In this document: one piece after another, positions 8,022 through 38,218 of the stretch
Layout: each line of letters starts with the position of its first letter
Numbering within the stretch: position 1 is the stretch's first letter
Assembly: GCF_021699055.1 (NCBI RefSeq)
Contig: NZ_SSXC01000002.1
Coordinates: forward strand, 1 to 64,000
Direction of reading: 5' to 3'
DNA from: Blastococcus sp. MG754426
GTDB taxonomy: Bacteria; Actinomycetota; Actinomycetes; Mycobacteriales; Geodermatophilaceae
DNA length: 64,000 bases
Position numbers and translations under genes: made by a program
The notes under the pieces: generated by a model
Databases searched by the model: none
The model's input: only the letters and a program-made list of their open reading frames with translations
What the model was told of the DNA's origin: nothing

Positions 8022-8055
8022 GCTGCCGGGACGATCAGGTGTCCTGGTCGTCAGG

Positions 8056-8108
8056 GGTCCTGGCTCACGGTGGAAGGTGAGCCAGGACCGCACCAGCTGA
8101 GCCAGGAT
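8056..8108 (+). promoter_or_regulatory. Hairpin plus 20-bp spaced repeats before ATPase gene
   Basis: A perfect 13-bp inverted repeat (GGTCCTGGCTCAC at 8056-8068 and its complement at 8077-8089, 8-base loop) follows the carboxyltransferase stop. Its core TGAGCCAGGA occurs three times at exact 20-bp intervals: inverted at 8058-8067, direct at 8078-8087 and direct at 8098-8107. The last copy covers the CAGGAT -10 box (8103-8108) of the next gene. No T-tract follows the hairpin. It could be a terminator, a set of operator sites two helical turns apart, or both. Confidence 0.5.
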
Positions 8109-8114
8109 GGCCGC

Positions 8115-8834
8115 GTGGACCGCCGACCCGTGCGCCGGCTCAGGCCCGACCCGGCCGCACCGCCGCACCCGGTGGACGCGTGGCCGGCGACCGTGCCGGC
8201 CATCGCGCAGGTCCTCTGCGAGGGGCTGGAGCTCGGGCCGGGCGCGACGGTGCTCGTCGGCGAGAACGGCTCGGGCAAGTCGACGGTCCTGGAGGTGCTG
8301 GCCGCGGCGCTGGGGCTCAACTCCGAGGGCGGGTCGGCCGCCGCCCGGCACCGCACCCGGAGCAGCGAGCCGGGCGGTCTCGACCTCGTCGTGGAGCGCA
8401 GCCCCGGGGCTCCCCGCTGGGCGTACTTCCTGCGGGACGAGACGCTGCACGGCCTCTACAGCTACCTGGAGGAGAACCGGAACCCCCAGCGCGCCGAGAC
8501 GGCGTTCCACGAGCTCTCCCACGGGGAGGCGTTCCTGTCCCTCTTCGGCGACCGGGCCCGCGGTCCGGGCCTGTACGTGCTCGACGAGCCCGACGCCGCC
8601 CTCTCCTTCACCGGCGTGCTCTCCCTCGTCGCCCGGCTCGGCGATCTGGTCGCGCGGGGCGCGCAGGTCGTCGTCGCCACCCACTCCCCCGTGCTGGCCG
8701 CCCTGCCGGGTGCCCGGCTGCTCGAGGTCGGCCCGTGGGGCCTGCGGGAGACCACCTGGGAGGAGCTCGAGCTGACGGCCCACTGGCAGCAGTTCCTGAC
8801 CGATCCGGGCTCCTTCCTGCGCCACCTGGGGTGA
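8115..8834 (+). CDS. Lone AAA/ABC-type ATPase (AAA_21-like)
   Basis: This soluble ABC-like ATPase of about 239 residues resembles the single-domain ATPases found beside repair or stress genes. Seen: Walker A VGENGSGKST, an ABC-like signature region ELSHGEAFLSLF (SHGE in place of SGGE), Walker B GLYVLDEPDAALSF and the switch histidine in VVATHSPVLAALPGARLLEV. The long coiled-coil or Rad50-type insertion is absent. GTG 8115 is preferred to GTG 8070 because CAGGAT lies six bases before it, matching the leaderless pattern of neighbours. The gene stands alone between the carboxyltransferase gene and a membrane-protein gene, so its role is unknown. Confidence 0.75.
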   Translation: MDRRPVRRLRPDPAAPPHPVDAWPATVPAIAQVLCEGLELGPGATVLVGENGSGKSTVLEVLAAALGLNSEGGSAAARHRTRSSEPGGLDLVVERSPGAPRWAYFLRDETLHGLYSYLEENRNPQRAETAFHELSHGEAFLSLFGDRARGPGLYVLDEPDAALSFTGVLSLVARLGDLVARGAQVVVATHSPVLAALPGARLLEVGPWGLRETTWEELELTAHWQQFLTDPGSFLRHLG

Positions 8835-8871
8835 ACACCCCCACGGCGGGCGGCAGTGGGACCATGGACCG

Positions 8872-9321
8872 GTGGACAGCGACGCGGAGCGGACGCCGGA
8901 CCCCGTGGTGCGCCCGGCCCCGCACCGGTGGTTCTGGTACGCGCTCGGTGGCGGGCTGCCCGCGCGGCACCGCGGCTGGGTGCTGCACGACACGACGACC
9001 GGCACCTGGTGGGCCCGTCACCTCCTCCGGACGATGGTCCAGCTCTCGATCCCCATCGCGCTGGTCGTGGCCTTCCTGCCCGCCTCGTGGGAGCTGCGGC
9101 TGGCGGTCGCGGGCGGCGGCATCTTCCTGGCGCTCATCTACTCCCTGGCCTACATGCCCGAGACCACCGAGAACCGGGTGGTGAAGGCCGGTTACCCCGC
9201 CGGCACCGCGACCGCCGCCCGGGAGCGCGCCGGCCTGGCCGGCCAGCAGGCCGAGAGCGAGCGCAAGCGCGTCGCCGCCGCCCGCCGGGCCGCCCGTTAC
9301 CGGGAGCGCCAGGGCCGCTGA
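8872..9321 (+). CDS. DUF5313-type small membrane protein
   Basis: The 149-residue protein has an N-terminal segment RWFWYALGGGLPARHRGWVLHDTT, two membrane helices (residues about 56-74 and 80-96) and a positively charged Ala/Arg/Glu-rich cytoplasmic tail. The layout and the LP-RYREWVLHD-like motif match actinobacterial DUF5313 proteins, which have no established function; the family name is from memory. The start GTG 8872 is preceded by GACCAT and six bases, consistent with a leaderless transcript. It lies 37 bases downstream of the ATPase gene and may be co-transcribed. Confidence 0.65.
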   Translation: MDSDAERTPDPVVRPAPHRWFWYALGGGLPARHRGWVLHDTTTGTWWARHLLRTMVQLSIPIALVVAFLPASWELRLAVAGGGIFLALIYSLAYMPETTENRVVKAGYPAGTATAARERAGLAGQQAESERKRVAAARRAARYRERQGR

Positions 9322-9353
9322 CGCCGGGGCGGCGGGGTGGCAGCATCCTGCCC

Positions 9354-9803
9354 GTGACCAGCGGAGCCGCCGCCGACCCGCACCTGCGCGACCTCGCGCG
9401 GCTGCGCCGCGTCAAGGACCGGATCGACCGCGAGTACGCCCGGCCGCTGGACGTCGCAGCACTCGCCCGGGGCGCCCACCTGTCGGCCGGGCACCTGAGC
9501 CGGGAGTTCAGGCGCGCCTACGGCGAGTCCCCCTACGCCTACCTGATGACGCGGCGCATCGAGCGCGCGATGGCGCTGCTGCGGCGCGGCGACCTGACGG
9601 TCACCGAGGTCTGCTTCGCGGTGGGCTGCTCGTCGCTGGGCACCTTCAGCACCCGCTTCACCGAGCTGGTCGGGGTGCCGCCGAGCACCTACCGGCGGGA
9701 GGCCGCGGCGGCCACGGTGGGCATCCCCCCGTGCACCGCCAAGCAGGTCACCAGACCGGTCAGGAATCGAGAAGCGCCGGCACCGGCGCCGTCCCTAGCG
9801 TGA
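9354..9803 (+). CDS. AraC-family transcription regulator (DNA-binding domain only)
   Basis: The 149-residue protein is essentially a two-helix-turn-helix AraC domain (residues about 15-120): PLDVAALARGAHLSAGHLSREFRRAYGESPYAYLMTRRIERAMALL, followed by VTEVCFAVGCSSLGTFSTRFTELVGVPPSTYRR. There is no separate effector domain; the tail (residues 121-149) is basic and Pro/Ala-rich. GTG 9354 has CAGCAT seven bases upstream. The VOC gene starts 5 bases after the stop and the UvrA-like gene follows. This triplet recurs in actinobacteria (family knowledge), so the regulator probably controls the operon. Confidence 0.88.
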   Translation: MTSGAAADPHLRDLARLRRVKDRIDREYARPLDVAALARGAHLSAGHLSREFRRAYGESPYAYLMTRRIERAMALLRRGDLTVTEVCFAVGCSSLGTFSTRFTELVGVPPSTYRREAAAATVGIPPCTAKQVTRPVRNREAPAPAPSLA

Positions 9804-9808
9804 CCGGC

Positions 9809-10219
9809 ATGGACCTCACCATCCACCACACCTTCCTCCCGCACGACGACCCCGAGGCCTCGCTGGCCTTCTACCGCGACGCCCTCGGCTTCGAGCTGCG
9901 CAACGACGTCGGCTACGAGGGCATGCGCTGGCTCACCGTCGGCCCGGCCGACGGTTCGGCGACCTCGATCGTGCTGCACCCGCCGGCCGCCGACCCCGGG
10001 ATCACCGAGGACGAGAAGCGCACCATCGCCGAGATGATGGCCAAGGGCACCTACGCCTCCGTCGTCCTCGCCACCAAGGACGTCGACGCCGCCTTCGACC
10101 GCATCCAGGCCACCGGCGCGGAGGTGATGCAGGAGCCGACCGACCAGCCCTACGGGGTGCGCGACTGCGCGTTCCGCGATCCCGCGGGCAACACCGTCCG
10201 CATCCAGGAGCTGCGCTGA
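9809..10219 (+). CDS. VOC (glyoxalase/bleomycin-resistance fold) protein
   Basis: This 136-residue vicinal-oxygen-chelate protein is made of two beta-alpha-beta-beta-beta units. Seen: HHTFLPHDDPEASLAFYRDALGFELRNDV, MRWLTVGPADG, SVVLATKDVDAAFDRIQATGAEVMQEP and the C-terminal DCAFRDPAGNTVRIQEL, whose Glu is the usual metal ligand. Such proteins bind or modify drugs or catalyse dioxygenase or isomerase steps. Its place between an AraC regulator (5-base gap) and a UvrA-like ATPase suggests a resistance unit, where it may sequester or alter a toxic compound. Confidence 0.85.
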   Translation: MDLTIHHTFLPHDDPEASLAFYRDALGFELRNDVGYEGMRWLTVGPADGSATSIVLHPPAADPGITEDEKRTIAEMMAKGTYASVVLATKDVDAAFDRIQATGAEVMQEPTDQPYGVRDCAFRDPAGNTVRIQELR

Positions 10220-25545: not shown

Positions 25546-25655
25546 GCTGGTTGCTCCGCTCACGTTCGGTGACGACGACCTGACCTGCACTCCATCGGCC
25601 GGGTGAACGCGGTGCTTGAGCGGCCTGCCGGGATCCCGCCCCCGGTGCGCACCGG

Positions 25656-26405
25656 TCAGGGACGCAGGGTGCCGGTGCGGGTGAGCTCCTCGGCCACCGC
25701 GTGGAGCTTGCGGTTGCTGTCCTGGCTGACCTTGGCGAGCAGGCCGAAGGCCTGATCCGCGGTGATCTTGAACCGCTCCATGAGGATGCCCTTGGCCTGC
25801 CCGATGACGTCCCGGTGGACCAGCGCCGCGCTCACGTGCTCGAGCTCCTGCGCATCGGCCACGGCGACCGCGGCGTGGCTGGCCAGCAGCAGGCCGACGT
25901 GCTCGGACTCGTCCCCGAACGCTGCTCCCCGGCCCGACATGAGGTTCAGCGCGCCCAGGTTGTCGCCGTGCACGAACAACTGGAAGCACAGCAGGCTGCG
26001 CACGCCCAGGTCGGTCGCCCGAGCGGCGAGGTACGGCCAGCGCGCGTCGCCGGCCAGGTCGTCGACCCGGACGGTGCGCTCCCTCAGCAGGGCGTCGACG
26101 CAAGGCCCCTGGCCGGTCTCCCCCTGCAGCCGGTCGAAGCTCCGCGGCAGGTCGCCCGTGGCCGCCGCGGAGTAGACGTGCGCCTTCCGCGTCATGCTGA
26201 TGGACGACTCCTCGGCGCCGGGCACCATGCGCACCGCCAGGGCCACGATCTCGTCCATCACCTCCTGCGGGCCCGACCGCTCCTGGAGGTCGCGTGCCGC
26301 ATCGGCCAGCCGCCGGGCGAGCTCACCCTCGCCCGCGGCCGTGCCGGTGCCCTGGGACGAGGGCTGCCCGCGCCCGAGCGACTGCTCTTCCCGGCTCGTC
26401 GTCAT
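25656..26405 (-). CDS. GAF-ANTAR RNA-binding regulator
   Basis: The 249-residue protein joins a GAF domain (about 40-175: ALAVRMVPGAEESSISM, GQGPCVDALLRERTVRVDDLAGDARWPYLAARATDLGVRSLLCFQLFV) to a C-terminal ANTAR domain (about 190-245: ALVHRDVIGQAKGILMERFKITADQAFGLLAKVSQDSNRKLHAVAEEL). ANTAR domains bind tandem RNA hairpins to prevent termination; the GAF part senses a ligand. ATG 26405 has CAGTCT six bases upstream. Before the element inserted, this gene lay directly next to the tRNA-Arg gene. Confidence 0.9.
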   Translation of the reverse strand: MTTSREEQSLGRGQPSSQGTGTAAGEGELARRLADAARDLQERSGPQEVMDEIVALAVRMVPGAEESSISMTRKAHVYSAAATGDLPRSFDRLQGETGQGPCVDALLRERTVRVDDLAGDARWPYLAARATDLGVRSLLCFQLFVHGDNLGALNLMSGRGAAFGDESEHVGLLLASHAAVAVADAQELEHVSAALVHRDVIGQAKGILMERFKITADQAFGLLAKVSQDSNRKLHAVAEELTRTGTLRP

Positions 26406-26456
26406 CGACCGAGACTGCCACGTCACGCGGGGCGCGGGAACGGGCGGCGACGCGCG

Positions 26457-26500
26457 GTGCCCCCGGCAGGATTCGAACCTGCGACACACGGTTTAGGAAA
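26457..26500. repeat. Left attachment repeat (attL), 44 bp
   Basis: This copy reads through the T-arm and anticodon-arm part of tRNA-Arg (minus strand) up to GTTTAGGAAA and is then replaced by unrelated sequence. It is the chromosomal 3' end displaced by integration; the intact gene is at the right end. The first base before the 44 bp differs between the copies (G here, C at the right). Confidence 0.92.
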
Positions 26501-27001: not shown

Positions 27002-27172
27002 GTAGCGCCGGTTGGGGGAAGCGGCCCGAAGCTGTGGGTGGACGTCAGGGGTGCGATGAGTCCATCGCTTTGGGTACTACTGTCGACGGCGGCTGAAAAC
27101 TGACCCCCTGGCGGCAACCGAAAACTGACCCCCTCCGAGACCCTGGCTCGACTTGAGCCGGGGAGGGAGCGG

Positions 27173-28414
27173 GTGCTTTCAGTGGAGGACTGGGCGGAGA
27201 TCCGCCGGCTTCATCGGGCGGAGCAGATGCCGATCAAGGTGATCGCGCGAGTCATGGGCGTCTCGAAGAACACGGTGCGAGCCGCGCTGCGCAGCGCCGG
27301 CCCGCCCCGCTATGAGCGCCCGCCGCGGGGGTCGGTGGTCGATGAAGTCGAGCCGCGGATCCGGGAGCTGCTGCAGGCGTTTCCGACGATGCCGGCCACG
27401 GTGATCGCCGAGCGGATCGGCTGGGACCGGTCGGTGCGGGTGCTGCGGGATCGGGTGGCCGAGCTGCGCCCGGTCTATCTGCCGCCCGACCCGGCATCCA
27501 GGACGGCATATGCGGCCGGCGAGATCGCCCAGTTCGACCTGTGGTTCCCACCCATCACGCTGCCGGTCGACCACGGCCAGACCCGAACGGCGAAGCAGCT
27601 GCCGGTGCTGACCATGGTCTGCGGCTACTCCCGGTGGGCGGCCGGAGTGCTGATCCCCTCGCGCACCGCGGAGGACTTGTTCGCCGGCTGGTGGCAGCTG
27701 CTCGCCACGCTCGGCGCGGTGCCGCGGGTGCTGGTCTGGGACGGCGAGGGCGCGGTCGGCCGCTGGCGCGGCGGGCGCAGCGAGCTCACCACCGTCTGCC
27801 AGGGCTTCCGCGGCACCCTGGCCACCAAGGTGCTGATCTGCCGGCCGGCCGATCCCGAGGCCAAAGGCCTGGTCGAGCGGCTGCACGACTATCTGGAGCG
27901 CTCGTTCCTGCCCGGCCGGAGCTTCACTGGGCCGGAGGACTTCAACGCTCAGCTGGCGGCCTGGCTGGCGCTGGTGAACACCCGTCCCCGCCGGGCGCTG
28001 GGCTGCGCGCCGACCGACCGGATCGCCGCTGACCTGGAGCGGATGCTGCCGCTGCCGCCGGTCGCACCGGCCACCGGCTGGCGGGCCAGCACCCGCCTGG
28101 CTCGGGACCATTACGTGCGGCTGGACGGCAACGACTACTCGGTGCATCCGGGCGTGATCGGCCGCCGGGTCGAGGTCATCGCCGATCTGGACCGGGTGCG
28201 GGTGCTCTGCGAGGGCCGGTCGGTGGCCGACCACGCCCGAGCCTGGGCCACTCACCAGACGATCTCTGCCGAGGAGCACGTGACCGCCGCCCGGGCGTTG
28301 CGCGCGGAACGACTCGGCCGGCTGCGGCCGGCCCCGAAGACCGAAGAGGTCGAGATCCGGCCGCTCAGTGACTACGACGCCGCTCTCGGACTCACCGACG
28401 GAGGCGTGGCATGA
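27173..28414 (+). CDS. istA: IS21-family transposase IstA
   Basis: The 413-residue transposase has an N-terminal HTH (EDWAEIRRLHRAEQMPIKVIARVMGVSKNTVRAALRSAG) and an RNase-H-like DDE core: the first Asp in IAQFDLWFPPI, the second in VLVWDGEGAVG and the Glu in EAKGLVERLHDYLERSF. A C-terminal beta domain with DGNDYSVHPGVIGRRVEV follows. GTG 27173 has GGAGGGAG upstream; GTG 27182 is possible. The stop overlaps the istB ATG (28411-28414). Confidence 0.93.
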   Translation: MLSVEDWAEIRRLHRAEQMPIKVIARVMGVSKNTVRAALRSAGPPRYERPPRGSVVDEVEPRIRELLQAFPTMPATVIAERIGWDRSVRVLRDRVAELRPVYLPPDPASRTAYAAGEIAQFDLWFPPITLPVDHGQTRTAKQLPVLTMVCGYSRWAAGVLIPSRTAEDLFAGWWQLLATLGAVPRVLVWDGEGAVGRWRGGRSELTTVCQGFRGTLATKVLICRPADPEAKGLVERLHDYLERSFLPGRSFTGPEDFNAQLAAWLALVNTRPRRALGCAPTDRIAADLERMLPLPPVAPATGWRASTRLARDHYVRLDGNDYSVHPGVIGRRVEVIADLDRVRVLCEGRSVADHARAWATHQTISAEEHVTAARALRAERLGRLRPAPKTEEVEIRPLSDYDAALGLTDGGVA

Positions 28415-29187
28415 GCGGCCGGGACCTCGAGGCGGAGGTGGCGTTCCTGACCCGGGCGCTGAAGGCGCCCACCCTGCGCGAAGCGGTGCCCCGGCTGGCC
28501 GAACGGGCCCGCGAGCAGTCCTGGAGCCACGAGGAGTTCCTCATCGCCTGCCTGCAGCGGGAGGTCTCCGCACGGGAGTCCCACGGCGGGGAGGGGCGGA
28601 TCCGCGCCGCCCGGTTCCCGGCCCGCAAGAGCCTGGAGGAGTTCGACTTCGACCACGCCCGCGGCCTCAAACGGGACCTGATCGCGCATCTGGGCACCCT
28701 GGACTTCGTCACCGAACGGGAGAACGTGCTGCTGCTGGGCCCGCCCGGCACCGGCAAGACCCACCTCGCCACTGGCCTGGCCATCCGCGCCTGCCAGGCC
28801 GGCCACCGAGTCCTGTTCGCCACCGCAACCGAGTGGGTCACCCGCCTCGCCGAGGCCCACCACGCCGGCCGGCTGCAGGACGAGCTGCGCCGGCTCGGCC
28901 GCTATCCGCTGCTGGTGGTCGACGAGGTCGGCTACGTGCCCTTCGAGCCCGAGGCCGCGAACCTGTTCTTCCAGCTGGTCTCCAGCCGCTACGAGCGGGC
29001 CAGCCTGATCGTGACCAGCAACAAGCCCTTCGGCCGCTGGGGCGAGGTCTTCGGCGACGAAGTCGTCGCCGCCGCCATGATCGACCGCCTGGTCCACCAC
29101 GCCGAAGTCATCTCCCTCAAGGGCGACAGCTACCGACTCCGAGACCGCGACCTCGGCCGCACCACGGCCGCCACCGACGACGCATGA
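28411..29187 (+). CDS. istB: IS21-family helper ATPase IstB
   Basis: This 258-residue AAA+ protein of the DnaC/IstB type activates IstA and selects targets. Seen: Walker A LGPPGTGKTHLA (about 111-121), Walker B LLVVDEVGYVPFE, sensor-1 region IVTSNKPFGRWGEVFGD and the C-terminal DRLVHHAEVISLKGDSYRLRD. It overlaps istA by four bases and ends 59 bases before the right end of the IS. Confidence 0.95.
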   Translation: MSGRDLEAEVAFLTRALKAPTLREAVPRLAERAREQSWSHEEFLIACLQREVSARESHGGEGRIRAARFPARKSLEEFDFDHARGLKRDLIAHLGTLDFVTERENVLLLGPPGTGKTHLATGLAIRACQAGHRVLFATATEWVTRLAEAHHAGRLQDELRRLGRYPLLVVDEVGYVPFEPEAANLFFQLVSSRYERASLIVTSNKPFGRWGEVFGDEVVAAAMIDRLVHHAEVISLKGDSYRLRDRDLGRTTAATDDA

Positions 29188-29248
29188 CCACCAGGGGGTC
29201 AGTTTTCATCTGCCGCCAGGGGGTCAGCTTTCGCCCGCCGTTGACAAC

Positions 29249-29389
29249 TACAACGCCGTCGCGCCGCCGATAGCCGCGGGCGTCTCCGAGCCAGCCTCTG
29301 GCCTGGTCCTGCGGCCGGAGATCGCCGCGCTCACGATGTCCAGCTCGTCGCTGATCGTCGCCGTAACAGCGCTCTTGCTTAGCGGCTTC
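29249..29389 (+). pseudogene. C-terminal fragment of heavy-metal P-type ATPase
   Basis: In the plus frame starting at 29249 the 47 codons read YNAVAPPIAAGV, GLVLRPEIAALTMSSSSL and IVAVTALLL. This closely resembles the last two membrane helices of P1B metal ATPases, where YN-P-AAGV and RPEIAA-MS-SS--VAVNALLL are usual (family pattern from memory). There is no upstream part: the IS21 end abuts it and the sequence left of the IS is not in the same frame. It is a relic, probably from an older metal-resistance cargo. It faces the S8 protease gene, whose 3' end lies just beyond. Confidence 0.5.
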
Positions 29390-29422
29390 GGCTGCCAGGG
29401 CCGGCGCAGGGCACTGACGCGG

Positions 29423-31795
29423 CTATGTGCGGAGGCGCACGCGCGCCGGCACCCGGACCTGCTGAGTGACGAGGGCATACAGATCGAGGCCGACCCGTCC
29501 TCGGTCCTCCAGGGTGGCTGCCAAGGCGTACCGCTGTCGCACCGCGGCATCGTCGGTGCGAGACCAAGTTTGCGTACGGTGAGTCACGACCAAGTAGTAG
29601 TTGTCACCGTCATCAACCTTCAGCAGCTTCGGTGCCCAACTGCGGACTTGCAGGGTGCTGCTCCGCACACTGTCAACGCCAGGCCCAAGATCCTTCACTC
29701 GCCGCCGGTCCGAAATCGGCGGCGTGGGATCGTCGGGGTCTTGCTTGGCAACAAGCTCAGCTAACTCTTCGATGTCGATAGCCCGATATAGGTCCATTTG
29801 CATGGTTCCAGCGAGGTACTCGCGTCGCTGTCGACGAACGGGCGGATCGAAGGCTAGTGCGACACGTATGCGCCGTGAATGGCTCTTTCCGGACGCGAAG
29901 GGCTCGGGGATTGGAAGTGGGTGGATAGCGACGGTGTCAACTGCCAGATCGCCGTCGAAGGTCATCGTGACCGCTGATGCTCCGCTGGTCGTAGCCCCGA
30001 TGCCGTCCGGTCGACCGGCACCATAGAGCCGTCGACGTTCGATCAGGTCTTGATGGGCAGCGGCTCCAGCTGGTTCCACAGCAGAGGCCCCTAGGAGCGC
30101 TCTGACGAGATTGGCGCTGGCCTCTGGATACGCATGCAGCACGTCGGCAGCGCACCGCGCTACGGCTGGGGCTGCGAAGCTGGTGCCACAGCCGGCCCTA
30201 AATAGGCGGCCGGAAGCGTCCAACGCTGTGCTAACCACCCCAACGCCCGGGTCTTCGCGGACTACCTGGTTCATGTCCGTCAGTACCCAGTTGCCTCCCT
30301 CGTGGACGAGGTCAGGCTTGTTGACTCGCGCCCTGTTCGTGCCAACTCCGGGTCCAGTGCGGCTGAATGGGGAGAGGTGTCCGACCTCGGCTATAGCCTT
30401 GTCTGCGATGCGAGGCGGCATTCGTTCCTCGGGGGCGTCGCTGTGTGCGATAGACCCGACGGTGAGGGCCAAGGCGGCGAGGCCAGGCTCTGTGAGGCGG
30501 TGCTCGGCTTCCCTGAGGTAGCTCGGGTAGTCGCGATCGGCGTGCTGTCCGCCTTGCATTTCAGCATTGTTGTAGACTGGCGCATTCCCTGTCGGAAGGA
30601 CGATGACGATATCGAGTTCCCGGGCAAGGTCATCAAGCACCTCGGTGAGCTCACCTACATGCGATGCCTCGAAGGGCTCCCGGAGGCCGAAACTGAGGTT
30701 GAAGACCCTAACTCCATGTTCCTCGTGCAAGCTGCGTATCGCTCGCTCGATGACTAGGTACGGGGGCTCTCCCTCATCGCCTCCAGCGAACTGTGTAGCG
30801 ATTCCGTCGCCAGGCACGGGCTCCAAGACCCTGGCCACGTGCACCTGGCCGACCGCGGTGAGAGCGGTGTGATCCCGCAACTCGTCGTGCAACCAAGGGA
30901 AGAGGACTCGTCCCACAACTTGAGTCCCATGGTGGCCCTGGGGTTCCCAGGCGTGCCCGTCAGGACCAACTTCCGAGACGCTGGCGATCAGGCCCTTGAG
31001 TAGGGGATGGCCCGTGGCGGGCGCGTCGTCGAGGACGCCGACCGCTGCGCCGGAGATGTTCGTGACGGTGAGGTCGTCGGCCTCGACATGACGCCAGTCA
31101 CTAGGGTCGACGTAGGGCATCGGCGGAGTGCGCACTCGCTCGACCACGCTGGTGTTCAGGAGGTCGACGAGTCCCGTTGTCCCTACCCGGACTCGGAGGA
31201 CGGTTCGTCGCTGCGAGACACTCGAGGTCATGACCTGGCCCTGGGCCGCCTGGACCACCGCCGTGACGATCTCGGCACGTCGGCGAGCCTCCTCGTGGTC
31301 ATCAGAGGGCCAAACGCTGACGTCTACGACGCTGTGTGTGGGTGACTCAAGCGCATCGTCTATGCCGGGACCTCGGCGATCCTCCGGGCCGTAGGGCTCG
31401 ATGGCGTCGATGCGATCGAAGAGCGTCGCCGCCGGCCCCTTAGCGCCTAGCCGGTCAGCGCCTTGGGCAGCGTAGGACGTGAGGGCTTGGGTAAGTTGCG
31501 CCCCTTCGTCATGCGTCAAGACGAAGTATGTGTAGTCGGCGGTCTCGCCGAGGGGGCTGATTCCTCGGGCCGTCAGCATGTCCTCGCTTAGGCGTGTACG
31601 TGTCGCTCGAATCTTGAACACGAGATCGGGGTCGACGCCGCTTGTGAGCCTGCGTGCTTGGCGGACCGCCACGACTTGTTGGCCCAGAGTGGCTCCGTGG
31701 CGGCGAGGGTTCCGAGGGGGTGGAGGCGTGCCCCCGACTGGTGTCCGGCGGGAATCGACCAATCGCCGTGGGGGCAGTTCGGGATGCTCGGCCAC
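29423..31795 (-). CDS. S8 (subtilisin-like) protease, partner of AAA+ ATPase
   Basis: The 790-residue cytoplasmic-looking protein (no signal peptide) has a 235-residue N-terminal region with two I9-like alpha/beta stretches. A subtilase domain (about 245-570) follows, then a C-terminal beta-rich domain. The catalytic residues are intact: Asp256 (GVLDDAP), His289 (GHHGTQVVG), oxyanion Asn404 (LPTGNAP) and Ser539 (GCGTSFAAPAVAR). It starts 10 bases after the AAA+ gene, so the two are one operon. A protease tied to an AAA+ ATPase on a mobile element suggests regulated proteolysis, possibly phage or plasmid defence; that role is inference. GC content is lower than in the flanking chromosome. Confidence 0.85.
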   Translation of the reverse strand: MAEHPELPPRRLVDSRRTPVGGTPPPPRNPRRHGATLGQQVVAVRQARRLTSGVDPDLVFKIRATRTRLSEDMLTARGISPLGETADYTYFVLTHDEGAQLTQALTSYAAQGADRLGAKGPAATLFDRIDAIEPYGPEDRRGPGIDDALESPTHSVVDVSVWPSDDHEEARRRAEIVTAVVQAAQGQVMTSSVSQRRTVLRVRVGTTGLVDLLNTSVVERVRTPPMPYVDPSDWRHVEADDLTVTNISGAAVGVLDDAPATGHPLLKGLIASVSEVGPDGHAWEPQGHHGTQVVGRVLFPWLHDELRDHTALTAVGQVHVARVLEPVPGDGIATQFAGGDEGEPPYLVIERAIRSLHEEHGVRVFNLSFGLREPFEASHVGELTEVLDDLARELDIVIVLPTGNAPVYNNAEMQGGQHADRDYPSYLREAEHRLTEPGLAALALTVGSIAHSDAPEERMPPRIADKAIAEVGHLSPFSRTGPGVGTNRARVNKPDLVHEGGNWVLTDMNQVVREDPGVGVVSTALDASGRLFRAGCGTSFAAPAVARCAADVLHAYPEASANLVRALLGASAVEPAGAAAHQDLIERRRLYGAGRPDGIGATTSGASAVTMTFDGDLAVDTVAIHPLPIPEPFASGKSHSRRIRVALAFDPPVRRQRREYLAGTMQMDLYRAIDIEELAELVAKQDPDDPTPPISDRRRVKDLGPGVDSVRSSTLQVRSWAPKLLKVDDGDNYYLVVTHRTQTWSRTDDAAVRQRYALAATLEDRGRVGLDLYALVTQQVRVPARVRLRT

Positions 31796-31805
31796 GCTCA
31801 GTACT

Positions 31806-32783
31806 TCACCATGGACGGGCCGTTACACGCGAGAGCGCTCCGTCCATGTCGTCAGATGTCACCTCCTTGCGCTGGGACATGAGTGCGAAGCGACGGGCGT
31901 CCCATACGAGCTTCTCGGCGGCGGCATGGGGTAGGCCCTTCAGTGCGCTTGCGTACCTCTCCACGTCCACGCCCTTGTGGGGGACGGGCCGCAACCGAAG
32001 GCGAATGAGCCGACGCAGCTCATGGACGGATGGCTTGCCGAAGTCGATGACTTCGTCGAAGCGCCGCCACAGTGCCGCGTCCAGGAGGGCTGGATGGTTT
32101 GTCGCTGCGATCAGAATGCTCGGCCCACGGTACTTGTCGATCATCTGAAGAAACGCCGTCACGACGCGCTTCATCTCGCCGTGCTCGGCGGCGTCGTCGC
32201 GCGTGCGCCCCAAGGCGTCGAACTCATCGAATAGCAGAACGAATGGTGCTTGGTTGGCGTAGTCGAGGACCCGTCGAAGATTGCTCGCCGTCTCGCCAAG
32301 ATAAGAAGACACGACCGCGTCGAGTCGGACGACGACAAAGGGGCGACGCAACTCGTGCGCTAGGGCCTCCGCGGCACTCGTCTTTCCGCATCCAGGAGGC
32401 CCTTGGAACAGAAAGCGCTGGCGGCGCGGAACCGCATGCTGGTCGAGTTCGGCCCACAGGGGGACTTCGGTGCCGATGTCCCTAAGGGTGGCCGTGACTC
32501 GCGGGCTCACTACGAGTTCGTCGAGTGTCCGTTCCGGCGTCCGCACTTCAGCTAGCGCCCAGTCTCCCTCCCGGTCTTTGGGTGGTTCGGGGAGAACGGC
32601 ATAGGAACCGACATCCAGACCAGCCGAGCTTCCCCCTGCCATGAGCCGCTGCAGATCTCGGGCAAGCGCGAAGTGGTGCTTTCCCTCTTCCTCTTCGATG
32701 ATCTCGGTCGCCGCGCGACGAAACGCCAACTCGTCGTTCATACGGAAGGCGCGGAACAGCTCTTTGAGGTGCCTGCCCGCCAT
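31806..32783 (-). CDS. AAA+ ATPase, partner of S8 protease
   Basis: The 325-residue protein has a helical N-terminal region (1-90: FRAFRMNDELAFRRAATEIIEEEEGKHH) and a SpoVK/FtsH-class AAA+ core. Seen: Walker A GPPGCGKT (128-135), Walker B FVLLFDEFD (Asp186-Glu187), sensor-1 Asn229 (ATNHP), arginine-finger pair LWRRFD (240-241) and a C-terminal lid. It may sense a trigger and hand substrates to the S8 protease. ATG 32783 follows TACGCT and six bases, so the transcript is probably leaderless. The gene sits upstream of the protease gene in the operon. Confidence 0.87.
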   Translation of the reverse strand: MAGRHLKELFRAFRMNDELAFRRAATEIIEEEEGKHHFALARDLQRLMAGGSSAGLDVGSYAVLPEPPKDREGDWALAEVRTPERTLDELVVSPRVTATLRDIGTEVPLWAELDQHAVPRRQRFLFQGPPGCGKTSAAEALAHELRRPFVVVRLDAVVSSYLGETASNLRRVLDYANQAPFVLLFDEFDALGRTRDDAAEHGEMKRVVTAFLQMIDKYRGPSILIAATNHPALLDAALWRRFDEVIDFGKPSVHELRRLIRLRLRPVPHKGVDVERYASALKGLPHAAAEKLVWDARRFALMSQRKEVTSDDMDGALSRVTARPW

Positions 32784-32808
32784 GTGGTCAGCGTAGCTTC
32801 AACTGAAG
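32784..32808 (-). promoter_or_regulatory. Promoter and palindromic operator of AAA+/S8 operon
   Basis: On the minus strand TACGCT (32790-32795) is followed by six bases and the ATG at 32783, a clear leaderless -10. Immediately upstream lies CTTCA-GT-TGAAG (32797-32808), an inverted repeat with a 2-base centre between -10 and -35. It is a plausible repressor site; the XRE regulator encoded at 33050-33307 is the natural candidate. The 241 bases from 32809 to 33049 hold no other feature that I can support. Confidence 0.55.
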
Positions 32809-33049
32809 AGTCGCTCTGGCGCGAAGCTCGCGACGCCTGGTGAGGCGTGCAAGGAGGCGCAGATGAGGCGCCAGAGTCGTCATGGTGTCACGTCCGTGGC
32901 AGGCGTGACGCGGTCGCGACGCTCGGTTCGGCAGTTCCCTTCGACGGCGCCGACTTCGATCGACCGACGTGGGGAGCTTGGCTGGAGGTGTGTCCGACGT
33001 CTGTTGGGGACGCGCAGCGCGCTCGGACCGAAACGAGTCGACGCGGAAC

Positions 33050-33307
33050 TTAGGTGCATGGCCAGCCTTCGGGGCGCAGGTCGCTCGGCCGGACGCCCAG
33101 GGCGCGGACGATGGCAGCTGGTAGGACGACGACCACGCCTGAGAGTTCTCGCTCGATGCTGCTGATGGCGATCCGGTCGAGTTCCACCTTCTCGGCCAGG
33201 TCCGGCTGACGCGTGCCGGCTGCAAGTCGCAACTTTCGGACACGCGCCCCGAAGACGGCTAGCTGCTCGTGGCGATCCCCGGTCTCCGAGGCGACCTGAA
33301 GGCCCAT
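33050..33307 (-). CDS. XRE-type helix-turn-helix regulator
   Basis: The 85-residue protein has a Cro/C1-type HTH (about 18-72): GARVRKLRLAAGTRQPDLAEKVELDRIAISSIERELSGVVVVLPAAIVRALGVRP. The usual turn is slightly modified but recognisable. No extra domain is present. It lies upstream of and parallel to the AAA+/S8 operon, so it may regulate it or the element's own genes. The start ATG 33307 lacks a clear Shine-Dalgarno sequence. Confidence 0.72.
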   Translation of the reverse strand: MGLQVASETGDRHEQLAVFGARVRKLRLAAGTRQPDLAEKVELDRIAISSIERELSGVVVVLPAAIVRALGVRPSDLRPEGWPCT

Positions 33308-33717
33308 GGGACATCGCGCTCACGAGCCCAATGTTGGGCAAGGGTGTGACAGAAGCTCGGGGGCCGGGCGGCCCAACTGCCTCCGTGGAGCGCGGGTCGA
33401 ACAAGGGCCACAACTTGCAGGCGTTGTCCCGCGACCTCGGCTCTGATGTCACGGCGGAACGTCCGGCACCGAGCGGGGACGTCTGGGACGTGTGCTCACA
33501 CCTCCAGCGCGCTGGAACCGGTGGGCCGATCGCCTCGCAACCGAGTCGTCGCCCCGCAGAGCGCTTCACGGCCGCTCCGTGAGCGGTGCAGCGAATCTCG
33601 ACCATTTACGAGGAACGGCACGCATGCTACCAATGGAGGTAGCTAGGGCCCCGCTTTGCGGGGCCCTTCGGCATTTCTGGAGGCGGCGTGCTGGTCATTG
33701 TTGGGCGGCGTTGAAAA
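33308..33717. other. Non-coding gap before the relaxase, possible oriT region
   Basis: These 410 bases carry no convincing gene; short open frames such as 33331-33582 look random. The right end has two tandem hairpins: GCTACC-AATGGA-GGTAGC (33626-33643) and the strong stem at 33645-33667. MobF relaxases usually nick near their own gene, so an origin of transfer could lie here; I could not locate a nick site. Confidence 0.45.
33645..33667 (+). terminator. Strong GC hairpin upstream of relaxase
   Basis: AGGGCCCCGC (33645-33654), loop TTT, GCGGGGCCCT (33658-33667), a perfect 10-bp stem, 51 bases before the relaxase ATG. No T-run follows. A weaker hairpin precedes it by two bases. It could terminate readthrough, attenuate relaxase expression or belong to the origin of transfer. 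Confidence 0.55.
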
Positions 33718-36510
33718 ATGCGCGGCGGAGTGAAGGTCTACACCGGGGCGCCTGCGGGCGCCCGCCACTACCTCGAGGGTAATCGCGGCCGGGCGGATGA
33801 CTACTACCTGGCCGAGGGCGCCGGGATCGCCCGTCGCTACGCCGCCGGTGCTGGTCGGGTCCGTGAGTTGGCTCCGCTGTCTGGTGACGGCTACGAGGGG
33901 TGGGTGTCCGGGGTCGATCCGGCCACCGGTGAGCCGCGGGGCCGACTGCGCACCGACGACCGGGCGGTGCGGTTCGTCGAGCTGGTCGTCAACGGACCGA
34001 AGTCCTGGTCGCTGGCGGCCGCGCTGCACCCGGACATCGCCGCCGCGTACGACGCGGCGCAGGACCGGGCCGGGGAGCAGATCATCGCCTGGTTGTCGCA
34101 GCACGCGACCACCCGCGTAGGCCCGCGCGGGGCGCAGGTGCAGGTGCCGGTGGAGCTGTTGGAGGCGGTGACGGTGCGGCATTACACCTCCCGCGCCGGG
34201 GATCCCCACCGCCACCTGCACCTGCAACTGCTCGCGCGGGTGTTTGCGGCCGCGAAATGGCGCGGGCTACACACCGTCGGCGTCCGCGACTTTCTCGGCG
34301 CAATCAACGGAGTAGGGCATGCGGCGATGGCCTGCGATCCGGAGCTGAACGCCGCGTTCGCCGCGAACGGCTACACCCGGGATGGCACTGGAGAACTACT
34401 GCAGCTCGCTCCGTACGTCGGTCCGATGAGCGCGCGGGCGGCGCAGATCGCCGCGAACATCGCCCGTTACGAACGGCAATGGACACAGGCGCATCCCGGC
34501 GAATCTGCCGGCCCGGCTTTGCGGCGGGCGTGGGAGGCGCGGGCGTGGGCCGACGGCCGCCCGGACAAGGTCCGCCGCCGCCCGGGTGAGGACCACGACG
34601 AACGCTGGCGGTCGGAGCTGGCCGGACTGGGCTTTCGCGCCCCCAGCGCGCCGGTTCCGATGGCCCTGACGGCGGTTGGGGCCCTGGACCGGGACGGGGC
34701 CGTCCAACGCGTACTGGCGCGCCTGGGGGCCGCCCGGTCGGCGTGGAACGCCGCCGACATCCGCGGTGAGGTGGAGCAACTGCTCGCCGCCGACGGCATT
34801 GTGGCCGACGCGGCAGTGCGGCTGGAGCTGGCCGAGGACCTGACCGCCCGGGCAGTCGGCCGCTGCGTGTCGCTGCTGGGCCGCGAGGGCATGCCGGAGC
34901 ACATCCGGGACTGGACGTCCCGACCGGTGCTGGACGTCGAGACCGACCTGCAAGCGCGGTTCGCCGTACGGGCCGGCCAACCGCCCGTGGGGGAACTGCA
35001 GCCGACGTGGGCCTCCGTTGGAAGAAGCGCCCGGCTCGACGACGGCCAGACCGCGGCCGTCACGCTTCTGACCGGCGGTCGGCAGCTGATCGTGGTGGAG
35101 GGCGCGGCCGGGGCCGGCAAGACCACCACCCTGGCCGTCACCCGTGCTCTGCTCGAGCTGCAGGGGCGGGGGCTGGTGGTGGTTACGCCGACGCTGAAGG
35201 CGGCCAAGGTCGCCAACGCGGAGACCGGCGCGGCCACTGGGACGGCGGCATGGCTGGCCCACGCCTACGGGTGGCGATGGACCGCTTCGGGGGACTGGTC
35301 CCGGCTCGGCGACGGACAGCTCGACCCGCGCACCGGTCGCGAGTACCTCGCGCCGGCGGTCGCCTGGTTGCGGCCGGGCGATCTGCTCGTCATCGACGAG
35401 GCCGGGATGCTCGACCAGGACACCGCCCGTGCCCTGCTGGCGATCGCCGACGAGTGTCAAGCGCGCGTGGCGCTGCTCGGGGACCGGCATCAGCTCGCCG
35501 CTGTGGGGCGGGGTGGTGTGCTGGACCTCGCCGCCGGCGCCGCCGAACGGGTCGACCCCGGCTCGTGTCTGCAGCTGGAGTCGGTGCACCGGTTCACGCG
35601 CTGCGACGACACCGGCCGCACGGTGCCGGATCGGGAGTACGCCGAGCTGACCCTGGCGATGCGCCGAGGTGACGATCCGGGCGCGGTGTTCGACGCCCTC
35701 CTCGCCCGCGGCCGGATACAGCTGCACCGCGACACCGAAGCCCTGCAGACCGCAGTCGCCGAGATCGCCGCCGACAGACCCACAGCCGATGTCGCGCTGG
35801 TGGCCGACACCCGCGAGCAGGTCGCTGCGCTCAACTCTGCGGTCCGGGACCGGCTTGCCGCCGTCGGCCGGGTCGACGACACCGCCGTCGTGACCACCCG
35901 GACCGGGCAGCGGATCGGCGCCGGCGATCGGATCGCCACCCGCTGCAACGACCGCGGCCTGGACGTCGCCAACCGCGACACCTGGACTGTCACTGCAGTC
36001 AGTGAACGCGGCGGCCTGCTCGTCACCCCCAACACCGGGAAAGGGGACAGCTCCGGCGGGGACGTCACCTCGGCTGGCGACGTGGTCCGGGAGCTGCCCG
36101 CCGCCTACGTCACCGACCACGTCGAGCTGGCCTACGCCAGCACCGTGTACGGCGTCCAAGGCGCCACCGTCACCGCAGCGCATCTGGTCCTCGGTGATCA
36201 CACCGGCGCCGCCGCGGCCTACGTCGGCATGACCCGCGGCCGCAGCGCCAACACCGCCCACCTCGTCGCCGCCGACGTCGACGAGGCACGCGAGCAGTGG
36301 ATCGCCGCCTTCAGTCGCGACCGCGCTGACCTCGGCCCCAGCCACGCCGCCGCACTCGCCGCCCGGGAGGCCGACCGCTACGCACCGAGCCGGCCGCTCG
36401 ACCGGGCCGCACGGGGGCATGGCCCGGGCCCCGGCGTTCGCCGTCCCGAGTCCGAGCGTCGCGTGCCGTCCATGGGCCCGAAGGGTGCTGGCCTGGGCAT
36501 CGGGCGATGA
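33718..36510 (+). CDS. MobF-family relaxase-helicase (TrwC/TraI-like)
   Basis: The 930-residue conjugative relaxase has an N-terminal nicking domain with the metal triad His164/166/168 (DPHRHLHLQ) and candidate nucleophile tyrosines Tyr29-Tyr30 (ADDYYLAEG). A RecD-like helicase domain carries Walker A at about 462-469 (GAAGAGKT), Walker B LLVIDEAGML and GDRHQLAAVGRGG, plus a C-terminal YGVQGATV and MTRGRS motif. It nicks and unwinds the element for transfer. No type IV coupling protein is encoded, so mating machinery must come from another element. ATG 33718 is used; GTG 33730 is possible. Confidence 0.93.
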   Translation: MRGGVKVYTGAPAGARHYLEGNRGRADDYYLAEGAGIARRYAAGAGRVRELAPLSGDGYEGWVSGVDPATGEPRGRLRTDDRAVRFVELVVNGPKSWSLAAALHPDIAAAYDAAQDRAGEQIIAWLSQHATTRVGPRGAQVQVPVELLEAVTVRHYTSRAGDPHRHLHLQLLARVFAAAKWRGLHTVGVRDFLGAINGVGHAAMACDPELNAAFAANGYTRDGTGELLQLAPYVGPMSARAAQIAANIARYERQWTQAHPGESAGPALRRAWEARAWADGRPDKVRRRPGEDHDERWRSELAGLGFRAPSAPVPMALTAVGALDRDGAVQRVLARLGAARSAWNAADIRGEVEQLLAADGIVADAAVRLELAEDLTARAVGRCVSLLGREGMPEHIRDWTSRPVLDVETDLQARFAVRAGQPPVGELQPTWASVGRSARLDDGQTAAVTLLTGGRQLIVVEGAAGAGKTTTLAVTRALLELQGRGLVVVTPTLKAAKVANAETGAATGTAAWLAHAYGWRWTASGDWSRLGDGQLDPRTGREYLAPAVAWLRPGDLLVIDEAGMLDQDTARALLAIADECQARVALLGDRHQLAAVGRGGVLDLAAGAAERVDPGSCLQLESVHRFTRCDDTGRTVPDREYAELTLAMRRGDDPGAVFDALLARGRIQLHRDTEALQTAVAEIAADRPTADVALVADTREQVAALNSAVRDRLAAVGRVDDTAVVTTRTGQRIGAGDRIATRCNDRGLDVANRDTWTVTAVSERGGLLVTPNTGKGDSSGGDVTSAGDVVRELPAAYVTDHVELAYASTVYGVQGATVTAAHLVLGDHTGAAAAYVGMTRGRSANTAHLVAADVDEAREQWIAAFSRDRADLGPSHAAALAAREADRYAPSRPLDRAARGHGPGPGVRRPESERRVPSMGPKGAGLGIGR

Positions 36511-36663: not shown

Positions 36664-36888
36664 ATGTCCGACCACCCCGCCGACCGCGAACCCGAGCTGC
36701 TCACCATCACCGAGGCCGCCGAACTGCTCCGCGCCCCCGTCGCGACCCTGCGCTACTGGCGCCACCTGGGCACCGGGCCGCGCAGCTTCCGCCTCGGCCG
36801 CCGAGTCCTCTACCGCTCCGACGACCTACGGAGCTGGATCGACTCTCAGCGAGGTCCGGACGGGAGTGCAGCTCGCGACCCAGCTTGA
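36664..36888 (+). CDS. xis: Excisionase-like MerR/AlpA-type HTH protein
   Basis: The 74-residue winged-helix protein reads LLTITEAAELLRAPVATLRYWRHLGTGPRSFRLGRRVLYRSDDLRSWIDSQR, the excisionase/AlpA HTH_17 pattern. It probably bends DNA near the attachment site and sets the direction of recombination. ATG 36664 has GGAG seven bases upstream. It lies 124 bases before the integrase gene on the same strand; that gap has no further gene. Confidence 0.82.
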   Translation: MSDHPADREPELLTITEAAELLRAPVATLRYWRHLGTGPRSFRLGRRVLYRSDDLRSWIDSQRGPDGSAARDPA

Positions 36889-37011: not shown

Positions 37012-38118
37012 ATGGCGTACAAGCGTGGAGACCGCTGGGTGGGCTTCTACCGGGATGCCTCCGGCAAGCAGCACACGAACGGGAAGTTCAAGCTCAAGCG
37101 GGACGCCGACCGCTGGGAAGAGGAGCAGAAGGCCGCCATCCGCAACGACGTCTGGGTCGACCCAGGCAGATCGAAGCTGACCGTCGGGCAGTGGGCGGAT
37201 ACGTGGATCGCCGGCCGCGTGCACCTCAAGCCCAAGACGCTCGCCTCGTATCGGTCGCTGCTGACCACCCAGGTGCTCCCGACCTGGGAAGCGGTGCCGC
37301 TGACGAAGATTCGCCGATCGGACGTCGTGGCCTGGGTGGCGGCCATGCGGGCCGCCGGGCTGTCCGCCTCTCGCACCCGACAGGCCTACCACCTCCTCAC
37401 GTCGATGCTGGAGGACGCCGTCAAGGACAGCCGGCTGGCACGGAACCCCGCATCCGGAGTCGACCTGCCCCGGCTGCCCAAGTCCGAGCGCCGGTACCTC
37501 ACCCACGCCCAGCTGGCCGAGCTCGCGGATGGGGCCGGACCGCACCGCCTGCTCCTCCTGGTGCTCGGCTACACCGGACTCCGCTGGGGTGAGGCCGCGG
37601 CCATCCGGGTGCGGCGTGTGGACCCGCTACGCGGCCGGATCGCCATCGTGGAGTCCGTGGTCGAGGTCAACGGGCAGCTGATCTTCGGCCCACCGAAGAC
37701 GCACCAGCACCGGACCGTCGTGGTGCCGAGGTTCCTGCGGGAGGAGCTGGCCCAGCAGGTCTCCGGTAAAGCTCCTGACGACCTCCTGTTCTCCTCGCAG
37801 ACCGGCACGCCGCTCCGTGTCTCGAACGTGCGCCGTCGCTGGTTCGACCGCGCGGCGGCTGCGGCAGGCCTCCCCGGCCTGACTCCGCACGAGCTGCGGC
37901 ACACCGCCGCGTCCCTGGCCATCGCCTCGGGCGCCAACGTCAAGGCGGTGCAATCGATGCTCGGCCACGCCAAGGCGGCGATGACCCTGGACCTCTACGG
38001 CCACCTGTTCGGTGACGAGCTGGACGCCCTCGCCGACCGCTTGGACGCCGCTCGTGCTGACATTCTGCTGACATCGGGCCGGTCGGGCGCCGAGGTGATC
38101 GCCTTCGATCGACCCTGA
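37012..38118 (+). CDS. int: Tyrosine site-specific integrase
   Basis: The 368-residue phage-type integrase has an N-terminal arm-binding domain, a SAM-like core-binding domain (LTVGQWADTWIAGRVHLKPKTLASYRSLL) and a C-terminal catalytic domain. The catalytic set is complete: Arg191 (TGLRWGE), Lys in PKTHQHR, His293-x-x-Arg296 (HELRHT), His319 (GHAKAAM) and Tyr329 (DLYGHL). ATG 37012 has GAGAGG 7 bases upstream. The stop is 27 bases from the right attachment repeat, and the last codons contain the paired TGCTGACAT repeats. It recombines into the tRNA-Arg gene. Confidence 0.95.
   Translation: MAYKRGDRWVGFYRDASGKQHTNGKFKLKRDADRWEEEQKAAIRNDVWVDPGRSKLTVGQWADTWIAGRVHLKPKTLASYRSLLTTQVLPTWEAVPLTKIRRSDVVAWVAAMRAAGLSASRTRQAYHLLTSMLEDAVKDSRLARNPASGVDLPRLPKSERRYLTHAQLAELADGAGPHRLLLLVLGYTGLRWGEAAAIRVRRVDPLRGRIAIVESVVEVNGQLIFGPPKTHQHRTVVVPRFLREELAQQVSGKAPDDLLFSSQTGTPLRVSNVRRRWFDRAAAAAGLPGLTPHELRHTAASLAIASGANVKAVQSMLGHAKAAMTLDLYGHLFGDELDALADRLDAARADILLTSGRSGAEVIAFDRP
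38055..38074. repeat. Integrase arm-type repeats (right)
   Basis: TGCTGACAT occurs at 38055-38063 and 38066-38074, an 11-bp period, inside the last codons of int. The same doublet, same strand and spacing, occurs at 26619-26638. Tyrosine integrases of this kind bind such arm sites through their N-terminal domain (family knowledge). Confidence 0.65.
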
Positions 38119-38144: not shown

Positions 38145-38188
38145 GTGCCCCCGGCAGGATTCGAACCTGCGACACACGGTTTAGGAAA
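38145..38188. repeat. Right attachment repeat (attR), 44 bp
   Basis: Identical over 44 bases to 26457-26500. It forms the 3' half of the intact tRNA-Arg gene on the minus strand, so integration restores the tRNA with element-derived sequence. The crossover lies somewhere inside the 44 bp. Confidence 0.92.
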
Positions 38189-38218
38189 CCGATGCTCTAT
38201 CCCCTGAGCTACGGGGGC
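38146..38218 (-). tRNA. tRNA-Arg (anticodon CCU)
   Basis: On the minus strand the 73 bases fold as a cloverleaf. The acceptor stem is GCCCCCG paired to CGGGGGC with discriminator A, the D-arm AGCTC-AGGGGATA-GAGC, the anticodon stem CGGTT/AACCG with loop containing CCT, and the T-arm GCAGG-TTCGAATC-CCTGC. The 3' CCA is not encoded. A TAGCCT box about 37 bases upstream (38255-38260, minus strand) may be its -10. It is the integration target of the element to its left. No gene lies between it and 38401. Confidence 0.95.

Follow-up and report, generated by a model that had tools for sequence, protein, structure and literature searches.

An IetAS-type ATPase-protease pair on a probable integrative mobilizable element of Blastococcus, with a predicted leaderless ietA start conserved in actinobacterial relatives

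Why would a mobile element carry the gene for an ATPase directly in front of the gene for a protease? The question is raised by a 64,000-nucleotide stretch of Blastococcus sp. MG754426 (contig NZ_SSXC01000002.1, positions 1 to 64,000; hereafter, the window), in which a two-gene operon encoding an AAA ATPase and an S8 (subtilisin-like) protease lies within an element at a tRNA gene. A first-pass annotation had proposed that the pair is a regulated-proteolysis system, such as phage or plasmid defence, and could not say whether this exact pair had been described. Judged by sequence, the pair is IetAS, a member of an already described toxin-antitoxin/phage-defence family. It is of the same kind as IetAS, SgiAT and mycoplasma TA132/133 but represents a divergent branch. 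Here we examine its conservation, its carrier, its upstream region and its distribution, and weigh how it might act.

Results

The pair and its relatives

Both genes are intact open reading frames (ORFs) on the reverse strand, 10 bases apart, with the AAA gene directly upstream of the S8 gene, as the annotation had it. The first gene of the operon, ietA (31806..32783, − strand), has an ATG start and encodes 325 amino acids; ietS (29423..31795, − strand) has a GTG start and encodes 790 amino acids. The PADLOC models for IetA (2.3e-83) and IetS (8.2e-82, residues 29-789) cover the two proteins nearly full length, and the Pfam matches were AAA and Peptidase_S8, respectively. A similarity of IetA to TRIP13 (3.7e-18) was discounted, being of the sort that AAA proteins share in general. 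GC content is 0.644 for ietS and 0.636 for ietA versus 0.756 and 0.763 in two host flanks, so the lower GC noted earlier was also confirmed. IetS, present in one copy in its own genome, has no strongly hydrophobic run at its N terminus, and it is therefore predicted to be cytoplasmic, in agreement with the annotation.

Relatives were collected through IetS alone. A scan of genome contigs with the window protease as sole query found no relative, whereas an alignment of six IetS proteins succeeded, giving 187 pattern matches and, from these, 171 relatives. The best 80 entered the analysis, and viral contigs added 8, for a total of 88 loci. An IetA gene lay directly upstream on the same strand in 87 of these 88 loci (the best 80 of 171 plus the 8 viral). 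The distance from the end of IetA to the open IetS frame ranged from −133 to +123 bases. The ten closest two-gene relatives are all actinobacterial, with identities of 50.5-52.5% for IetS and 66.7-72.8% for IetA. In the eight viral-collection contigs (L137-L144) the pair was complete in every case.

The catalytic residues reported for the window proteins are in place, and the comparison shows them to be invariant. With the window included, Asp256, His289, Asn404 and Ser539 are conserved in 89 of 89 IetS proteins, and Gly128, Lys134, Asp186-Glu187 and Arg240-Arg241 in 88 of 88 IetA proteins; in the window protein the Walker A motif spans residues 128-135 and includes Lys134, followed by the DE pair at 186-187 and the arginines at 240-241. 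The sole IetS of the 88 without an upstream IetA (tblastn, 1.5 kb upstream) is at 7878-10049 of locus L065. It keeps the triad, and its match starts at residue 98 or 102, i.e., the first ~100 residues have been lost. The joint loss of the IetS N terminus and of IetA agrees with the idea that cells would not tolerate an intact IetS toxin on its own.

IetA is predicted to have a PAN/FtsH-like fold, and the position of the pore loop is occupied by an aromatic residue. In PAN and FtsH the partner of the AAA unfoldase is the proteasome or a metalloprotease domain, whereas IetA is paired with a subtilisin-like protease. A sequence search for a structure of IetS returned only general subtilisins (best 2.9e-22); from the subtilases KP-43 and SubHal it differs by ~230 additional N-terminal residues. 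This region, which we looked at for an I9-type propeptide, contains two stretches (58-134 and 155-222) with the order beta-alpha-beta-beta-alpha-beta. The top Foldseek row for it was a pro-enzyme, but with an rmsd of 20.6, and assignment of a propeptide by Pfam failed, with none of six IetS N-terminal regions matching.

The carrier is a probable integrative mobilizable element

Identical 44-bp direct repeats, attL (26457..26500) and attR (38145..38188), bound an insertion of 11.7 kb at a tRNA-Arg(CCT) gene (38145..38218, − strand; ARAGORN), attR being the 3′ part of the tRNA gene. Within the element, on its attR side, lie, all on the + strand, genes for a tyrosine integrase (37012..38118; Phage_integrase 8.1e-22), an excisionase-like HTH_17 protein (36664..36888; 7.2e-12) and a MobF (TrwC) relaxase-helicase (33718..36510; TrwC 2.6e-47; NCBIfam MobF 106.2 bits, cut-off 100).

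The site was compared with stretches of 6-6.5 kb from four same-genus genomes. The tRNA gene and the 44 bp were identical in all four, no stretch like the left end of the element was found in any of them, and the integrase gave a single 29-base match, in G017. The left-flank alignment stops 20 bases short of the att copy in G015 and 48 bases short of it in G005, so that these two of the four represent the empty site; their right flanks share 96% and 93% identity, respectively. The left flank ends 925 bases from att in G017 and had no match in G016. The window itself has a second variable stretch at this tRNA-Arg gene, in that ~0.8 kb (25650-26456) separates attL from the conserved left flank.

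Integrase, att repeats and empty site together define an integrative element. No mating-pore protein was matched among the scanned ORFs, which are part of those of the element, and the element has its own relaxase. We conclude that ietAS is carried by an integrative and probably mobilizable element, which upholds its description as mobile-element cargo. For the scanned ORFs with a family match, it is also true that the pair is the sole intact cargo besides the mobility genes. An IS21-family insertion (istA and istB, 27081..29246, + strand), recognized by its ends and a 5-bp target repeat (ACTAC), adjoins the pair and lies outside the module.

According to the available part of a 2017 review, no known canonical integrative mobilizable element encodes a MobF relaxase (PMC5704250). 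The relaxase marks a family of elements: within the taxonomic family of the host, 42 of 96 genomes gave a match to it (E<=1e-100), and several of them gave more than one. At the 13 relaxase loci inspected (L211-L223), the stretch covered included the relaxase in 13, an integrase in 9 and an excisionase in 1, and the neighbouring genes differed. When 80 of the 118 other ORFs from 12 of the relaxase loci were scanned, 76 PADLOC models were matched at E<=1e-10 (one protein may match many models), including type II restriction-modification, GajB, ThsB and candidate systems. Scanned singly at E<=1e-25, 2 of 20 cargo proteins matched and 18 did not. Defence cargo was attributed to 3 of the 12 loci, an attribution that is thin, the remaining matches not being tied to single loci.

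A predicted leaderless start is conserved upstream of ietA

The first-pass annotation had also given the operon a leaderless promoter of its own, a palindromic operator and a nearby XRE regulator. Only the promoter was upheld by comparison. A predicted −10 box, TACGCT (32790..32795, − strand), lies 6 nt before the ietA ATG. All 17 actinobacterial relatives have a TANNNT box at a distance of 6 or 7 nt, counted in every one from the same start codon of the alignment. The box is present, even with the spacing relaxed to 4-8 nt, in 5 of 70 non-actinobacterial relatives (one of which has no upstream sequence), and at 6-7 nt in 16 of 129 control genes, whose starts were crudely called. Elsewhere the upstream sequence is not conserved, an indication that selection acts on the box and on its spacing; the 17 relatives are kin and so do not count as independent events. 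A sigma-70 consensus scan of 29200-33720 gave no sites. Leaderless mRNA is typical of the toxin-antitoxin pairs of Mycobacterium tuberculosis, being the rule for 32 of the 37 that have a primary start site, according to the part of the study available (PMC3898074), so a leaderless ietA would suit a toxin-antitoxin module. A literature search, not a thorough one, found no paper on leaderless ietA.

The proposed operator, CTTCAGTTGAAG, is one of five perfect palindromes with 5-bp arms in 130 bases (shuffles average 1.6), and it was present in none of 13 relatives' upstream sequences read by eye. The XRE-like ORF (33050..33307, − strand; 85 amino acids; HTH_31 27.5 bits, cut-off 27.0) had no match in the loci of the 88 relatives (phmmer, E<=1e-5), a search of limited sensitivity with one short query, and was dropped as a part of the module.

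Integrases and defence genes near actinobacterial ietS

To place the pair among its neighbours, we used 13 genomes from the 18 actinobacterial IetS loci (L057, L066, L069, L071 and L132 were left out). An integrase match lay within 10 kb of ietS in at least 6 of the 13, versus 0.62 expected from the genome-wide density (P = 1.4e-5); without a weak partial match in G809, five genomes remain (P = 2.2e-4). These P values assume an even spread of integrases, and distances were read from coordinates. In gene-neighbour sets built with our own GC3-based gene caller, Phage_integrase matched 4 of 114 ietS-neighbour proteins; it was not among the best 25 of 149 families for 133 control proteins, where a single weak match is still possible. 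Enrichment of defence models was modest, with 66 PADLOC models matched for the 114 neighbours versus 43 for the 133 controls. The former include ZacABC, DrmA/DrmD/DrmMI and a type IIG enzyme; the controls also gave mad, SspH and an S8 protein matching IetS models.

Distribution across genomes and plasmids

Across 397 genomes of the order the IetS model (E<=1e-20) matched 13, and across 396 of the phylum it matched 15; both counts include the genome of the window, which was the only one of its genus among these matches. The tallies are undercounts, because a divergent pair in another same-genus genome, G018, falls under the threshold or was unsampled. That distant pair (L050; G018:C25:1-16000) adjoins integrase and excisionase matches. 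In seven regions from the sampled genomes both genes were present in all seven, with both broken in G166, and an integrase was matched in three, that of G018 among them. Among 72,556 plasmid records, 66 contain an IetS relative, 32 of them typed as conjugative and 12 as mobilizable; in five records inspected, an ATPase gene was directly upstream in all five. On an Agrobacterium tumefaciens plasmid (L056, 36621-50777), an IetAS-like pair lies near genes annotated as TIR, HEPN and GIY-YIG. The distribution of IetS is sporadic, rather than that of a family mostly in core genomes among housekeeping neighbours.

Discussion

Relation to described systems

IetAS is reportedly a toxin-antitoxin pair of the Ti plasmid pTiC58, described by Yamamoto in 2009, and is said to have been listed later as an anti-phage system by Gao in 2020. 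The window pair has in common with it the order of the AAA and S8 genes, the location on mobile DNA and the nearly full-length PADLOC matches, and differs in its divergence as measured by NCBIfam scores and in its leaderless ietA.

The other relatives are likened here by description, from the parts of the papers available. SgiAT (S026-S025) of Salmonella Genomic Island 1 (SGI1) is likewise an AAA antitoxin/S8 toxin pair on an integrative mobilizable element, and deletion of sgiAT raised the loss of SGI1 when a helper plasmid was present (PMC5006074). The site of SGI1 in enterobacteria is trmE, and IncA/C plasmids mobilise it, whereas the element in the window uses tRNA-Arg and has a MobF relaxase. 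The promoter of the SGI1 pair was not SOS-regulated in Salmonella (PMC9927553). Mycoplasma TA132/133 has the same gene order and families in one operon, with the AAA antitoxin upstream of the S8 toxin (PMC8562856, PMC6755753), and is chromosomal there but element-borne in the window. An IetAS carried by Pf phage has been linked with phage resistance, by a mechanism stated to be unknown (PMC11878078). For pairs of this kind, the best-shown function is toxin-antitoxin activity and element stability rather than phage defence. The regulated-proteolysis and defence role first proposed thus fits the homology, the integrase and defence neighbourhoods and the published relatives, with the emphasis shifted.

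A proposed restrained protease

The reading that we favour, with a probability of roughly 0.7, is that IetA restrains IetS on this element and that the freed protease would kill or arrest the cell. IetA would hold the cytoplasmic subtilase in check; it may fall away or be overcome upon loss of the element, entry of a plasmid or takeover by a phage, and IetS would then cleave cell proteins, causing death or arrest. The outcome would be that the element is kept in the population, and phage infection may be aborted. In this chain of events, both the toxicity and the effect on phage are inferred. The model draws on the PADLOC matches, the pairing in 87 of 88 loci, the SGI1 and mycoplasma toxin-antitoxin pairs, the leaderless start, the proximity of integrases and the Pf-phage IetAS.

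Several points weigh against it. The fold matches of IetA are headed only by unfoldases of the PAN/FtsH/p97 type, not by inhibitors. The best NCBIfam models, IteA and IteS, score far under their equivalog cut-offs (227.9 versus 510 and 118.5 versus 900 bits), and we therefore regard the pair as a divergent IetAS branch rather than an NCBIfam equivalog. In the available part of the SGI1 study, expression of the pair from its native promoter did not lead to post-segregational killing, and the incompatibility between SGI1 and IncA/C plasmids was independent of it (PMC5006074). The mycoplasma and Pf-phage papers, in the parts available, name no protease target or mechanism (PMC8562856, PMC6755753, PMC11878078).

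Might IetA instead be a sensor and activator, its ring engaging a phage product and handing that product or a signal to IetS, in the manner of a split AAA protease? We think this unlikely, because the AAA partner acts as the antitoxin in the SGI1 and mycoplasma pairs, as far as the available parts of those papers go (PMC5006074, PMC8562856, PMC6755753). A more specific form of the restrained-protease model seems doubtful to us: the leaderless ietA start of actinobacteria would itself be the trigger, the synthesis of IetA depending on functional leaderless initiation and host transcription, so that takeover by a phage or plasmid starves the cell of IetA, and IetA would be, rather than a passive inhibitor, an ATP-driven unfoldase that continually disarms IetS by pulling on the N-terminal domains of the protease.

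That the pair serves addiction only, stabilising the element without an anti-phage role, would suit both the SGI1 losses after deletion of sgiAT and the many conjugative and mobilizable plasmids among the 66 records, but IetAS is listed as an anti-phage system and defence models are frequent near its relatives; we consider so narrow a role improbable. A housekeeping ATPase-protease pair acquired by the element is very hard to credit. Proteins of the AAA and S8 families are in general common, but the distribution of IetS is sporadic, with few matching genomes at the order and phylum level even if these are undercounted, and with a single copy in the host.

Implications

The system itself is known; what is added here is that it sits on an element with a MobF relaxase in tRNA-Arg and that the leaderless start predicted for ietA is conserved, the latter upheld on comparative grounds. 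The presence of IetAS on a probable mobilizable element, integrated at a tRNA gene in a high-GC actinobacterial genome, provides a parallel to SgiAT on SGI1, and sister elements that share the relaxase family may be a place to seek other defence systems. The conserved leaderless first gene is a testable regulatory feature, and, since the mechanism of the protease is stated in the available literature to be unknown, having the pair from an actinobacterium in a tractable host would help to define it.
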